Shown here: positions 13,949 to 21,705 of the stretch, piece after piece | Layout: each line of letters starts with the position of its first letter | How positions within the stretch are numbered: the first letter of the stretch is position 1 | IMG/VR virus record: IMGVR_UViG_3300033183_000047 | Location: 1-21,890 of that record | DNA: 21,890 nucleotides | Reading direction: 5' to 3' (one strand) | Source of the DNA: a virus | The notes under the pieces: model-generated | What the model was told of the DNA's origin: nothing | The model's input: only the letters and a program-made list of their open reading frames with translations | Databases searched by the model: none | Program-made: the position numbers and the translations under genes

Positions 13949-14082
13949 TACTTTTTCTTCTTAGGAAAGCCAGCTAACATATTCTTGTAAGCTTTAGGTG
14001 ATATAGTTGAATCTTCTTTAGATCGACTTGTACCAGCCTTCTTGCGTTTATTTATGTTGTAATATAATCCTTTACTAGCCAT
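13948..14082 (-). CDS. 44-residue basic micro-protein (MASKGLYYN family look)
   Basis: A 44-residue product starting MASKGLYYNINKRKKAGTSR and ending PKAYKNMLAGFPKKKK. The K-GLY-NI-KRK-AGTSRS ... SPKAY opening is one I recognise from tiny basic proteins in many marine phages and cyanophages, with unknown function. It is lysine-rich throughout and lacks acidic patches. It overlaps both neighbours by one base in TAATG (13946-13950 and 14080-14084), so the trio of micro-genes here is probably translated as a coupled chain. Nucleic-acid binding is a guess from charge. Confidence 0.78.
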   Translation of the reverse strand: MASKGLYYNINKRKKAGTSRSKEDSTISPKAYKNMLAGFPKKKK

Positions 14083-17884: not shown

Positions 17885-18042
17885 TCTTCGTCATCAATAT
17901 CTTTGAACTTCATTGTAGCCATACGCTTGAGTTCTTGATTCTCTTTCCATAGCGCATCAATAATCTCCATGACTCTGGTATTATTAAGATGTGCCATAGC
18001 AAACTCTTCACGCAACTGCTCAATCATTGCCTTGAGTTCCAT
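17881..18042 (-). CDS. 53-residue helical hypothetical protein
   Basis: A 53-codon open frame with ATG at 18040-18042 and TGA at 17881-17883, missed by size cut-offs. The product is helical and charged, MELKAMIEQLREEFAMAHLN followed by NTRVMEIIDALWKENQELKR, with a heptad-like spacing that suggests a coiled coil and an acidic end (DIDDEE). A GGAG site lies seven bases before the ATG. It overlaps the DUF3310 gene by 23 bases and the large terminase by four (ATGA). It lies between small-terminase-side genes and TerL, so a packaging-related role is possible but unproven. Confidence 0.68.
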   Translation of the reverse strand: MELKAMIEQLREEFAMAHLNNTRVMEIIDALWKENQELKRMATMKFKDIDDEE

Positions 18043-18268
18043 CTTTAGTCTCCATGTGTTTCACTAAAAAAGCAACATAGTGTTGTAACTTCTTCAAGTC
18101 CTCAACACCCCCTTTATCCCGCCAACGCAGTGCGTACTTTATTATGTTCCCATTGAGGAAACCTTCATAAGCTTCATCAGATAGGTACTCTTGCATGATG
18201 TCTATAGGTTGGATAGTGTGTCGCTTGTAATGGTCACCACCAACTTGGACATTCTTTGGATCAGTCAT
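18020..18268 (-). CDS. DUF3310 family protein
   Basis: An 82-residue protein. The N-terminus has VGGDHYKRHTIQPIDIMQEY and the C-terminal half GNIIKYALRWRDKGGVEDLK and KLQHYVAFLVKH. The pattern GGDHY ... QPI(D/E)xI ... GN-IKY--R---K-G-EDLKKA-HY is that of the DUF3310 family, common in phages of many hosts. The family has been called nucleotide-kinase-like in some annotations, but no kinase motif is visible. It starts with ATG at 18266-18268, overlapping the preceding small gene by eight bases. Confidence 0.88.
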   Translation of the reverse strand: MTDPKNVQVGGDHYKRHTIQPIDIMQEYLSDEAYEGFLNGNIIKYALRWRDKGGVEDLKKLQHYVAFLVKHMETKDGTQGND

Positions 18269-18377
18269 TGTTTCTTCTTCCTACTCTTCGTTTTGCTTCT
18301 TCTGCAAATTTTACCACGATTTCAAAATGCTTGTGTGGTTCATTTAAGATTTTATCAATCCAGTCTGTTTTACTCAT
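18261..18377 (-). CDS. 38-residue basic hypothetical protein
   Basis: A short frame, ATG at 18375-18377 and TGA at 18261-18263, giving MSKTDWIDKILNEPHKHFEI and a basic tail ending RRVGRRNND. It is open further upstream to an ATG at 18452, but that version would overlap the small terminase by 83 bases. The shorter start overlaps the upstream stop by eight bases, as several gene pairs here do, and has GGAA five bases ahead. The function is unknown; short size and basic charge are all that can be seen. Confidence 0.55.
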   Translation of the reverse strand: MSKTDWIDKILNEPHKHFEIVVKFAEEAKRRVGRRNND

Positions 18378-18885
18378 GTTCTTCCGCTTCTTCTTGAACT
18401 CCTCCAATGCCTTCAGAGCTTTCAGACGTGCTGGACTGTTTAGGTTCTTCATAATATGTTGTTGTCTCCGGTGCTTTTACGTTAATACCAATTACTGATG
18501 GCTTATCTGATTCTTCTGGAGTGTCTAGTAATCCTGATGCTTTTGCTAAGATTCTTAGAACACCCACTTTATCCCAAAGCTCAATATCAATAGTTGTATA
18601 AGAATTACCTTCCTTATCGGTCTTGGTAACAGTCTTAATACTCTTGATAGCTTGTAATGCATGCTCAGGAATATCTTTGCTTGCCTTGACCTTAATGTTA
18701 CCTTCACTGTCCCACTCCATGATATCTGTTGGTTTCGTATTAGCAATACTGAGAAGAGTGTATGACACTGCTTCTCTGTTTGCTGCTAACGTCGTAGACC
18801 GCTCCAAGTTCTTTTGCAAGGCTCTCACCCCACCATACCCAGCTAAACTTGGAATCGGTTTATTTTTGTTTCTAGTTTCAGCCAT
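18370..18885 (-). CDS. terS: Probable terminase small subunit
   Basis: A 171-residue protein. The central part carries IPEHALQAIKSIKTVTKTDK and then YTTIDIELWDKVGVLRILAK followed by ASGLLDTPEESDK. This matches the end of TerS proteins, where 'ALQAIKxIK ... D-IxLxDKxxxLxxLxKxxGLLD' forms the helical region next to the large-subunit binding site. The N-terminus is basic (ETRNKNKPIPS), and the C-terminal tail is low in complexity and acidic (EEPKQSSTSESSEGIGGVQE). It would bind the viral DNA start site and deliver it to TerL, which lies three genes downstream. The ATG overlaps the stop of the upstream gene as TAATG (18883-18887). Confidence 0.7.
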   Translation of the reverse strand: MAETRNKNKPIPSLAGYGGVRALQKNLERSTTLAANREAVSYTLLSIANTKPTDIMEWDSEGNIKVKASKDIPEHALQAIKSIKTVTKTDKEGNSYTTIDIELWDKVGVLRILAKASGLLDTPEESDKPSVIGINVKAPETTTYYEEPKQSSTSESSEGIGGVQEEAEEHE

Positions 18886-19169
18886 TAGAATGGTAAGTCA
18901 TCATTATCTAAATCTAAGGCTTGAGCCTGATTCGCTGACTGCGTATGTTGTACTGGTGCTTGCCCACTTTGGTTCGCCACAGCACGACCAATTCTGATAC
19001 GCCTATACTCTTGGCCACTTTTACTCACGTTATCGTATACATCGATGTAATGCTCTGTGCCATCAGGTAATAGAATCTTTCCATTCCAATCTGCATGCCA
19101 CTCTTCTTGTTTACGATCATTCTTAAATACTGAACCAGTGCCTGGTTGTGGTTTATAATCTTCAGCCAT
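18885..19169 (-). CDS. Small putative ssDNA-binding protein with SSB-like C-terminal tip
   Basis: A 94-residue protein. The N-terminal 60 residues look beta-rich (GTGSVFKNDRKQEEWHADWN, KILLPDGTEHYIDVYDNVSK, EYRRIRIGR), as in a short OB-like barrel. They are followed by a Gln/Ala/Ser linker (65-84) and an acidic end, LDLDNDDLPF. This tail mimics the conserved DDDIPF tip of bacterial SSB, which recruits repair and replication partners. It lies directly downstream of the RusA-type resolvase and is coupled to it by TAATG (19167-19171), fitting a recombination or replication role. Family membership is not certain: the body does not clearly match classical SSB. Confidence 0.55.
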   Translation of the reverse strand: MAEDYKPQPGTGSVFKNDRKQEEWHADWNGKILLPDGTEHYIDVYDNVSKSGQEYRRIRIGRAVANQSGQAPVQHTQSANQAQALDLDNDDLPF

Positions 19170-19540
19170 TATTCTTCCTCACTATCTATTTCATAAATAT
19201 GGACGACAGCTGCGCCACCATCCTTCGGTTCACCTCTAGCAATCTCGATGTATTCAAATTGACTATCGTCATCATACACGCTAGCCTTCATTAATGCATC
19301 TAATATTGCTTTTAAGGTATTATCTAGGTCAAATTTTCTTTTTGATCTAGGATGTATCATAACACTAATTCCTAAACTGGCATCACCAAAGCCTTTAGAA
19401 CCTTGTGACTTTACCACAGCAAAGACTTCTTCTGTGAATTTTTTACCAGCTGGAGAGATATATCTTCGCTTTCCCGTTGCGTGCCAATAATTATTTACAC
19501 TCGGCGGATACGGCAATTCATATCTTAGTGTTGGTTTCAT
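19169..19540 (-). CDS. rusA: RusA-type Holliday junction resolvase
   Basis: A 123-residue protein, near the 120 of E. coli RusA. The N-terminal motif LPYPPSVNNYWHATGKRRYIS (11-29) is typical (PPSxN-YW, then a Tyr/Ser region). The metal-binding region KFDLDNTLKAILDALMKASV follows at 69-88, with DDD at 90-92. Asp 71, Asp 73 and Asp 91 or 92 fit the acidic residues that bind magnesium in this family. It would cut recombination or replication junctions so that concatemers can be packaged. The ATG overlaps the RHH gene in ATGA (19537-19540). In phages this enzyme often stands next to SSB-like or replication proteins, as here. Confidence 0.88.
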   Translation of the reverse strand: MKPTLRYELPYPPSVNNYWHATGKRRYISPAGKKFTEEVFAVVKSQGSKGFGDASLGISVMIHPRSKRKFDLDNTLKAILDALMKASVYDDDSQFEYIEIARGEPKDGGAAVVHIYEIDSEEE

Positions 19541-19701
19541 TTTAATCGATCCAATCTAGCATTCACATCTTTAGTAAGATAATACTTGATTGCATCATTG
19601 ATTAAACTTGCTTTTGTTTTCTCTTCACGCTTTGCTGCTACATTGAGCAGTTCAACACTTTGTGGTGTTAAGCGGACAAGAAATGGTTTTAGATCACTCA
19701 T
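19537..19701 (-). CDS. Ribbon-helix-helix (CopG/Arc-like) putative regulator
   Basis: A 54-residue product with ATG at 19699-19701 and TGA at 19537-19539. It begins SDLKPFLVRLTPQSVELLNV and continues AAKREEKTKASLINDAIKYY and then LTKDVNARLDRLK. The N-terminal short beta strand (PFLVRL), the helix (TPQSVELLNVAAKRE), and the KTKASLINDAIKYYL second helix are the classic RHH layout, with the strand inserted in the major groove by dimers. It is expected to repress or tune transcription of a phage or host target. It overlaps its neighbours by four bases on both sides (ATGA at 19698-19701 and 19537-19540), so it is co-expressed with the resolvase. Confidence 0.75.
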   Translation of the reverse strand: MSDLKPFLVRLTPQSVELLNVAAKREEKTKASLINDAIKYYLTKDVNARLDRLK

Positions 19702-20317: not shown

Positions 20318-20588
20318 AAAGATCTCCAACGTATTTATTGCGGACCTTTTTTGTCGGCCGTCCGCGACTCCGTGCATCATTCTTATGTTCTGCTTCCACA
20401 TCTCGTTTACACATCTCCACAATCTTTAAGTATTGACCAGCGGTCATTTCTTTCATACCATGACCAGTAAAGCCTTTTGTCATGCGCCAGTATCCACTAG
20501 GATCAGTAAACTTGTACTCTAATGGCTGACCATCATTAAACTCTTTGATGATTAACATATAAAATTCACGCAATGTTTTGTAAGACAT
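20310..20588 (-). CDS. Hypothetical protein with basic, AT-hook-like C-terminal region
   Basis: A 92-residue protein. It is hydrophobic/acidic at the start (YKTLREFYMLIIKEFNDGQP), followed by YKFTDPSGYWRMTKGFTGHG and a helical segment (EMTAGQYLKIVEMCKRDVEA), then a basic stretch containing RSRGRPTKKVRNKYVGDLYD. RGRP is the core of an AT-hook, which binds the minor groove of AT-rich DNA; in an AT-rich phage such a small DNA-binding element would be plausible but is not proof. The ATG at 20586-20588 has AGAGGTGA ahead and overlaps the methyltransferase end by 23 bases. The function is unknown. Confidence 0.6.
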   Translation of the reverse strand: MSYKTLREFYMLIIKEFNDGQPLEYKFTDPSGYWRMTKGFTGHGMKEMTAGQYLKIVEMCKRDVEAEHKNDARSRGRPTKKVRNKYVGDLYD

Positions 20589-21705
20589 GCTTTATCACCT
20601 CTACAGTCCAGCCATTACCTAACATTTTATATCGTTGTGTATTAGATACACCTTCTGTATAACCATCAGGTACAGTTTGTAATCGTTCACATTCCAATGG
20701 TGTTAATTTTCTGTAATACATTTTGTCTGTTACAAAATTATTTTGCTCCCAAGAACATGATGTTAAGGTTGGTGTTTTACCATCTACAGCTCGATAACCG
20801 CCTTTATTATTACCTCTTGGTTTTTGCAATATCACTACATTATCTTTTTGTACTGATGTTAGTGTATTGGTCTTATCATCTTTACGTACTCCTAATTGTC
20901 GTTTAGTTGAACCATCTTCTTCATATCGACCACGAAATGCACCGCACGCTACTTTAGGTTGACGATTACCACCATTCATAGAATTTAGAGTAGGTGATTT
21001 ACCTTCAGGGCTGTAAATTCGCTTCAGAATATCGTGACCATTAATGTCATCGGCCATACCAACTTGTATTGGTTTAGTGACCAACTGTCGTCTAGCTTTT
21101 GCTTTATACTGTTCCCAGTTAGCACCTTTATAATAATTAGCATCTATGCAATATGATTTATCTCTATCTGATTCAAAATCATTTTCTAATATATCTTTTA
21201 ATACAATCCCTTTATCTTCTGGTTGAGTAATGTTTGGTATATTAGTCCAATACAATCGTACTCGATTCTGTGCAGACACTAATGCACTATTAATCATTAT
21301 TGGCTCAACACCTAAATGCTCACTAATAATATCCTGGTATTCTTTTTTCATCCTGACATTTTCTAAGAGAAAGTATTTAGGATTGCATTCTTTTAATAAC
21401 CGAACAAACTCAAAGAACAATGCAGAACGTGGATCATCAAAGTTTAACTGCTTACCCGCAAAGCTAAATCCTTGACATGGTGAACCACCCAGTAATAAAT
21501 CAATTTGTGGTAAGTTTAATCTTTTATCTTTTACATAGATATTACATACATCACCGAGATGTATTGTATTAGGATAATTCTTTTTAGCTATTTCGATAGC
21601 ATATTTATCTATCTCCGATGCAAAGTAATTATCAACTTTAATACCTAGTTGGTCTAATGCAATCTGACCACATGACATTCCATCAAATAAACTCAATACA
21701 TTCAT
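20566..21705 (-). CDS. DNA (cytosine-5-)-methyltransferase
   Basis: A 379-residue m5C methyltransferase. Motif I is VLSLFDGMSCGQIALDQLG (3-21). Motif IV LLGGSPCQGFSFAG is at 71-84 with the catalytic Cys 77. Motif VI LLENV is at 113-117, motif VIII AQNRVRLYW at 145-153, motif IX RKLTPLECERLQ at 332-343 and motif X LGNGWTVEVI at 362-371. The region 154-331 is the variable target-recognition part, with repeated K(S/T)xTLxS units. The DGMSCGQ-type motif I is typical of phage and DNMT3-like branches. Modification probably protects the phage DNA against host restriction, or marks DNA for packaging. No cognate restriction endonuclease is seen nearby, so it looks like an orphan methyltransferase. Overlaps the preceding 38-residue gene in ATGA (21702-21705). 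Confidence 0.93.
   Translation of the reverse strand: MNVLSLFDGMSCGQIALDQLGIKVDNYFASEIDKYAIEIAKKNYPNTIHLGDVCNIYVKDKRLNLPQIDLLLGGSPCQGFSFAGKQLNFDDPRSALFFEFVRLLKECNPKYFLLENVRMKKEYQDIISEHLGVEPIMINSALVSAQNRVRLYWTNIPNITQPEDKGIVLKDILENDFESDRDKSYCIDANYYKGANWEQYKAKARRQLVTKPIQVGMADDINGHDILKRIYSPEGKSPTLNSMNGGNRQPKVACGAFRGRYEEDGSTKRQLGVRKDDKTNTLTSVQKDNVVILQKPRGNNKGGYRAVDGKTPTLTSCSWEQNNFVTDKMYYRKLTPLECERLQTVPDGYTEGVSNTQRYKMLGNGWTVEVIKHVLQNIA

Follow-up and report, generated by a model that had tools for sequence, protein, structure and literature searches.

Many partner proteins are reported to dock on the acidic C-terminal tip of the single-stranded DNA-binding protein SSB (PMC10164576), and E. coli RecO is described as binding the last nine residues of SSB (PMC7913777). 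Phage proteins with a tip of this type also bear the name: gp50 of Methylophilales phage MEP301 (ORF50, QRV71478.1) is annotated as 'ssDNA binding protein', and the available sections of the paper on this phage call it SSB, a name given by similarity, and relate it to the Acinetobacter phages SH-Ab and DMU1 (PMC8024684). The members of two PHROG families filed as single strand DNA binding protein, 18154 and 7364, among them proteins of phiVC8, VP2, SH-Ab 15497, PMBT28, VpV262 and others, have a body and a tip homologous to those of the protein described here, several of them with longer linkers and those of phiVC8 and VP2 with two body copies. In the record of Vibrio phage VpV262 the SSB label of such a relative is based on likeness to the SSB C-terminus, and at least in this record the label rests on the tail. 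No experiments on any family member were found in the accessible portions of the literature on MEP301, phiVC8, VpV262, phage SSBs, including those of non-OB type, and the SSB C-terminus (SSB-Ct). On integrative elements, the domain DUF736 (PF05284) is described, in the accessible part of one comparison, as present on all Mesorhizobium ICEs compared (PMC8627217), and a function for DUF736 was not found in the literature searched.

The window, that is the whole stretch of DNA that was analysed, is a virus record of 21,890 bases, which between positions 14000 and 21890 is nearest to MEP301 (45% covered at 72.9% identity). On its minus strand, at 18885..19169 and with an ATG start, lies the gene of a 94-residue small SSB-like protein, the orthologue of MEP301 gp50, which matches PHROG 18154 with an E-value of 1.4e-5; the same PHROG family is matched by 48 of the 58 members of the family alignment at 0.001. 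The protein is composed of a body (residues 1-63, 18981..19169), a fast-changing linker rich in Gln, Ala, Ser and Asn (residues 64-85, 18915..18980) and an acidic tip (residues 86-94, 18888..18914), the last identified from the sequence and from a tip search among relatives, all on the minus strand; its C-terminus reads ...ANQAQALDLDNDDLPF, the final nine residues being DLDNDDLPF. Directly upstream lies the gene of a RusA-family Holliday junction resolvase (19169..19540, minus strand; PF05866, E 1e-12) and directly downstream that of a small terminase subunit (18370..18885, minus strand; PF03592, E 1e-6). Both junctions read TAATG, the stop codon TAA of RusA sharing bases with the ATG of the 94-residue gene and the stop codon TAA of the latter with the ATG of the small terminase gene. 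The coupling of a 94-residue reading frame ending in DLDNDDLPF to RusA, as claimed in the preliminary description, is thus borne out by the sequence, by the TAATG overlap and by the PF05866 match. MEP301 and the window have the same order of RusA, SSB gene and small terminase and the same type of tip, and the two proteins are 58% identical in the matched part, which makes up 80% of the query, but differ in their linkers. Since the paper on MEP301 already names the orthologue SSB, the SSB candidate is not new; the new points are the constancy of the tip and the relationship to DUF736.

How constant is the tip? A search of IMG/VR with patterns for the body gave 265 relatives, the best 80 of which were kept, and as one of their reading frames (L039) is open, 79 complete proteins were compared. 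An SSB-like tip, taken as an acidic run at the C-terminus before a final [LIVT]P[FW], was found in 75 of these 79 from the best 80 of 265, and it is false that the acidic tip is missing from homologues, a possibility raised beforehand. The four exceptions are a protein that runs one residue past LPF (L034), one with a frame change (L062) and two that end in QDDSLDIPF (L079 and L082). These figures are drawn from the body-pattern search alone because the other loci were collected partly via tip patterns; over all loci collected, repeats of one gene included, there are 169 body-bearing reading frames, one of them open, 163 with the tip and five without it by the pattern used. Among the other stop-to-stop reading frames of at least 60 residues in the same loci an acidic ending occurs in 5 of 4645, counted with a similar, non-identical pattern and with many near-duplicates included, and four of these five are DUF736-like proteins akin to the body. 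Comparison of the window with an IMG/VR relative (L004) revealed nine synonymous and one non-synonymous changes in codons 1-63, and one synonymous and 12 non-synonymous changes in the codons thereafter; like the tip counts, this pattern shows that the tip-bearing reading frame is more than chance. The tip is near universal in the family while the linker drifts. Moreover, the last 13 residues of the relative in Salmonella phage PMBT28, NEPPMDFDDDIPF, are also the last 13 of the SSB chain 1eqq, which we take to be E. coli SSB.

Several further occurrences of such endings were noted. In VpV262 a second reading frame just upstream of the small SSB (L089, 3552-3944, plus strand) ends in DNDIPFDDDIPF. 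Seven phage proteins that bear the tip but lack the small body continue for 14-15 residues beyond DDDIPF (L106, L124, L153, L157, L158, L160 and L169, with reading frames ending at 2608, 2629, 2587, 2587, 2698, 2587 and 2587, respectively), and RDxFxRGxRTAYxCx is common to six of the seven. The small SSB of phiVC8 (L087, 3800-4315) likewise runs 14-15 residues beyond DDDIPF. In all these proteins such an extension would bury a docking tip; the protein of VP2 (L098, 2501-2974), a near relative of phiVC8, ends at the tip. It is these phiVC8 and VP2 proteins that contain two body copies within one protein; a mixed alignment intended for modelling the VP2 tandem was dropped, single bodies having become split across both copies. 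In the PDB, the very end of several myosin-2 heavy chains (3mnq, 7b19, 7b1a, 2jhr, 2xo8 and 2xel) matches the SSB tail peptide, which on these deposited chains is perhaps a cloning artefact.

The window protein shares with bacterial SSB (PF00436) the acidic tip ending in Pro-Phe and a low-complexity linker, but it has a shorter body, no PF00436 match and a predicted fold that is not OB. The earlier remark that it is no clear match to the SSB family was accurate, as PF00436 does not match the window protein in Pfam up to an E-value of 1 and was not found in the window record at 0.01. Furthermore, PF00436 was found neither in any of 14 records, the window and 13 phage records, nor in 28 body-bearing contigs, many of which may be fragments. 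The records for this search, as for the RusA and ERF searches below, were hand-picked from the collected loci, and two of the 30 records searched (L158 and L160), which do have PF00436, were left out of the 28 because they had been found via the tip, lack the small body and carry the tip on the PF00436 gene itself. An SSB family that also matches E. coli, phrog_44, has matches in nine of the 14 records, all of them confined to the tail part of the profile (positions 157-267 of 271); the match in the window lies at 18849-18977, the end of the 94-residue gene. Similarly, HHalign of the phage family against two canonical SSBs aligned only the 9-residue tip. In a profile search against PDB chains the SSB 3pgz was the sole match at E-values up to 10 (E 0.11), covering residues 116-193 of its 193-residue chain and ending at the tip. 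The OB domain of SSB usually precedes this region, and the match therefore lies after it. A phmmer search of the PDB with the window protein gave only ribosomal protein L28 (E 0.5), the sole Pfam row for the window protein up to an E-value of 1 is unrelated and below its cut-off, and NCBIfam gave no match.

Structure prediction points to a different fold. The AlphaFold model of the window protein, built with 36 sequences, has four strands (residues 12-16, 28-33, 39-48 and 54-63), with averages of 84-91 pLDDT for the ten-residue blocks from 11 to 60 and low confidence in the tail, including most of the linker; the model of the relative L067, built with 58 sequences, repeats this order of four strands with lower confidence. 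Overall confidence is moderate (mean pLDDT 72.3 for the window and 69.4 for L067, pTM 0.53 and 0.46), and the two models, led by different sequences, both place four strands within about 50 residues. A five-stranded OB barrel is seen in neither of these predictions, which are of moderate confidence and not solved structures. The preliminary description had looked for an OB fold and had held a structure other than an OB fold to speak against its reading; at the level of both predicted models, four strands and no barrel were obtained and the structure is not an OB fold. Its divergent phage ssDNA-binding protein accordingly stands in so far as the family is filed under this function (PHROG 18154, MEP301 SSB) and the tip is conserved, and falls as regards the OB fold. 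Foldseek gave no match in the PDB at an E-value of 0.001 (best 0.34) and eight matches in a viral library with TM-scores by query length of 0.52-0.60, none of them functionally named; row 17 of the viral library, at an E-value of 0.045, is a 'Single stranded DNA-binding protein' of Vibrio phage JSF9. In VIA-align, Borrelia Pur-alpha (3nm7) ranks first with the model of the window protein (Z 4.0, rmsd 3.7, 51 aligned) and second with that of L067 (Z 4.1, rmsd 3.8, 49 aligned), both weak matches, and the 50 matches listed for L067 include six further PUR, four PC4/Sub1 and one MRP1/MRP2 rows. PUR, PC4/Sub1 and MRP1/MRP2 are ssDNA- or RNA-binding proteins. The unrelated ELMO1 scores alike (Z 3.9 for the window, 4.2 for L067) and no match reaches a Z of 5; because unrelated rows tie and such scores are common by chance, the likeness to Pur-alpha is a hint only. 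Rows titled SSB or OB are absent from the 50 matches listed per model, an absence that carries no weight. In addition, the body has conserved aromatic positions: at positions 26, 37, 42 and 51 of L067, 91-100% of the residues present are F, W, Y or H.

The family gene is frequently found next to genes for RusA, ERF or DNA polymerase I. RusA is present in 36 of 50 records of relatives, with its domain directly upstream of the family gene in 28 of the 36 and 248 to 5,718 bases upstream in the other eight. ERF is present in 16 of 29 records; it is directly upstream in seven, all in the branch whose records have no RusA match, and at least 732 bases off in the remaining nine, six of them on the opposite strand. 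Among 13 cultured phage records, MEP301 has the RusA neighbour, in seven (BUCT555, SH-Ab 15497, phiVC8, PMBT28, VpV262, Bm1 and VLCpiS6a) DNA polymerase I is adjacent or lies no more than about two genes away, and in three (Mae-JY35, ctfne034 and C72C1) the gene directly upstream encodes an ERF or Sak annealing protein. In the last two, Faunus and Kokobel2, the neighbours are unnamed and no named ssDNA gene is nearby, a peptidase lying several genes away in Faunus. In four cultured phages (L086, L088, L091 and L096) the family gene is next to DNA polymerase I and at most two genes from an adenylosuccinate synthetase gene. Adenylosuccinate synthetase and DNA polymerase I form the gene set of phages with 2-aminoadenine DNA; a literature search for phage SSBs of Z-genomes gave no match.

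The body has kin outside phages. DUF736 does not match the window protein in Pfam, but sub-threshold matches occur in three of seven relatives (15.4-18.3 bits against a cut-off of 22.1), and at an E-value of 0.1 DUF736 was matched by five of 58 relatives, the best at 0.0013. A plasmid search with the relative L069 found a Caballeronia 'DUF736 domain-containing' protein (E 5e-5) as well as proteins of Paraburkholderia and Roseovarius that matched weakly (E 0.04 and 0.4). An HMM of the phage body scores these proteins at 44.6 (Caballeronia), 49.0 (Paraburkholderia) and 41.0 bits (Roseovarius), with a clear second and a weak first copy in each, and Pfam DUF736 matches the Roseovarius protein at 1.5e-24, the Caballeronia protein at 0.012, below its cut-off, and the Paraburkholderia protein not at all. 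A profile scan of genome contigs found no relative with an early family alignment and two relatives with the Paraburkholderia protein. HHalign of the phage family against eight plasmid DUF736 proteins gave a probability of 95.5% (E 1.6e-8, 40 columns) and a window-led alignment against DUF736 one of 87.8% (E 3.3e-6), whereas the controls stayed at 0.2% and 0.1% (phage family and DUF736 against a two-sequence RusA alignment) and at 0.1% (DUF736 against canonical SSB). Judged from these profile alignments, the body of the phage family shares core ancestry with DUF736. The Caballeronia and Paraburkholderia proteins, from plasmids of Burkholderiaceae, end in LEDEDIPF and PEDDEIPF, respectively, and since they carry both parts, the combination of body and tip exists outside phages. 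Unlike the phage family, the eight aligned DUF736 proteins (L184-L191) extend about 20-30 residues further at the C-terminus and lack an SSB tip at that place. In five of the eight the sequence closes with DDEDLM[AS]VIPW and a single acidic residue, which bears a faint resemblance to an SSB tip set back from the end by one residue. On a Mesorhizobium plasmid (L191, 1489-1788) the gene for DUF736 immediately precedes trbB, a conjugation gene. We tentatively suggest that the small SSBs of phages and the DUF736 proteins of conjugative plasmids and ICEs may together make up a single ssDNA-binding family of non-OB type, spread over mobile elements with its bodies single or in tandem, which has acquired SSB tips where partners of host SSB are to be recruited. 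On this view DUF736 would bind ssDNA during conjugation or establishment.

What might the protein do? We consider it moderately probable that it is a small phage ssDNA-binding protein of non-OB type, the SSB tail of which recruits SSB partners of the host. The four-stranded beta body of about 60 residues would contact ssDNA with its conserved aromatics, and the flexible linker would carry the SSB-type acidic tip ending in Leu-Pro-Phe, which, by analogy with E. coli SSB, may dock host partners such as RecO, RecG and the like onto ssDNA arising in phage recombination and replication, beside RusA. We infer the ssDNA binding of the candidate from the neighbours, from the conserved aromatics and from the absence of PF00436 SSB in the records searched. 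Against it stand the body of the window protein, which by reading of the sequence is not strongly basic, the two cultured phages with no named ssDNA gene nearby, and the cases of ERF (nine of 16) and RusA (eight of 36) that are not adjacent. If it is right, a protein name based at least in part on a tail motif includes a second route to an SSB-like hub, one without the OB fold, DUF736 would gain a testable function, and phages bringing their own tip onto ssDNA could redirect repair and replication factors of the host without an OB-fold SSB of their own.

The main rival is an adaptor or a decoy, the latter also raised in the preliminary description; here the body would have a phage protein (RusA, ERF or the polymerase) as its ligand instead of DNA, and the tip would recruit host SSB partners or titrate them away from host SSB. 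That no other distinctive part is as constant as the tip, which can equal that of an SSB exactly, that the body has no proven DNA-binding fold and that the neighbours vary among RusA, ERF and DNA polymerase would all suit such a role; the body, however, stays conserved as the neighbour changes, for which a common ligand such as ssDNA is better suited, and kindred bodies occur on plasmids beside other genes, so that we regard an adaptor or decoy as unlikely. An ordinary, extremely diverged OB-fold SSB that the models folded wrongly would agree with the database names and with 3pgz as the sole PDB profile match (E 0.11). It appears distinctly improbable, as that match falls beyond the region where the OB domain usually lies and stops at the tip, HHalign with two canonical SSBs aligns the 9-residue tip only, and two models from different leads agree on four strands. 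The TAATG overlap with the small terminase gene, in the same order in MEP301, might finally suggest an accessory protein of packaging working with the terminase, but ten of the 13 cultured records have DNA polymerase, ERF or Sak neighbours instead, and we give this role hardly any credence.

Some other genes of the window may be mentioned. A C-5 cytosine DNA methyltransferase gene at 20566-21705 on the minus strand (PF00145, E 8.8e-49) has DNA similarity to Roseobacter and Flavobacterium phages, and the annotated gene table of MEP301 has no methylase in it. On the same strand, small proteins encoded at 18020-18268 and 19537-19701 match PHROG 'nucleotide kinase' families (best E 7e-24) and the ribbon-helix-helix family PF01402 (at its cut-off).
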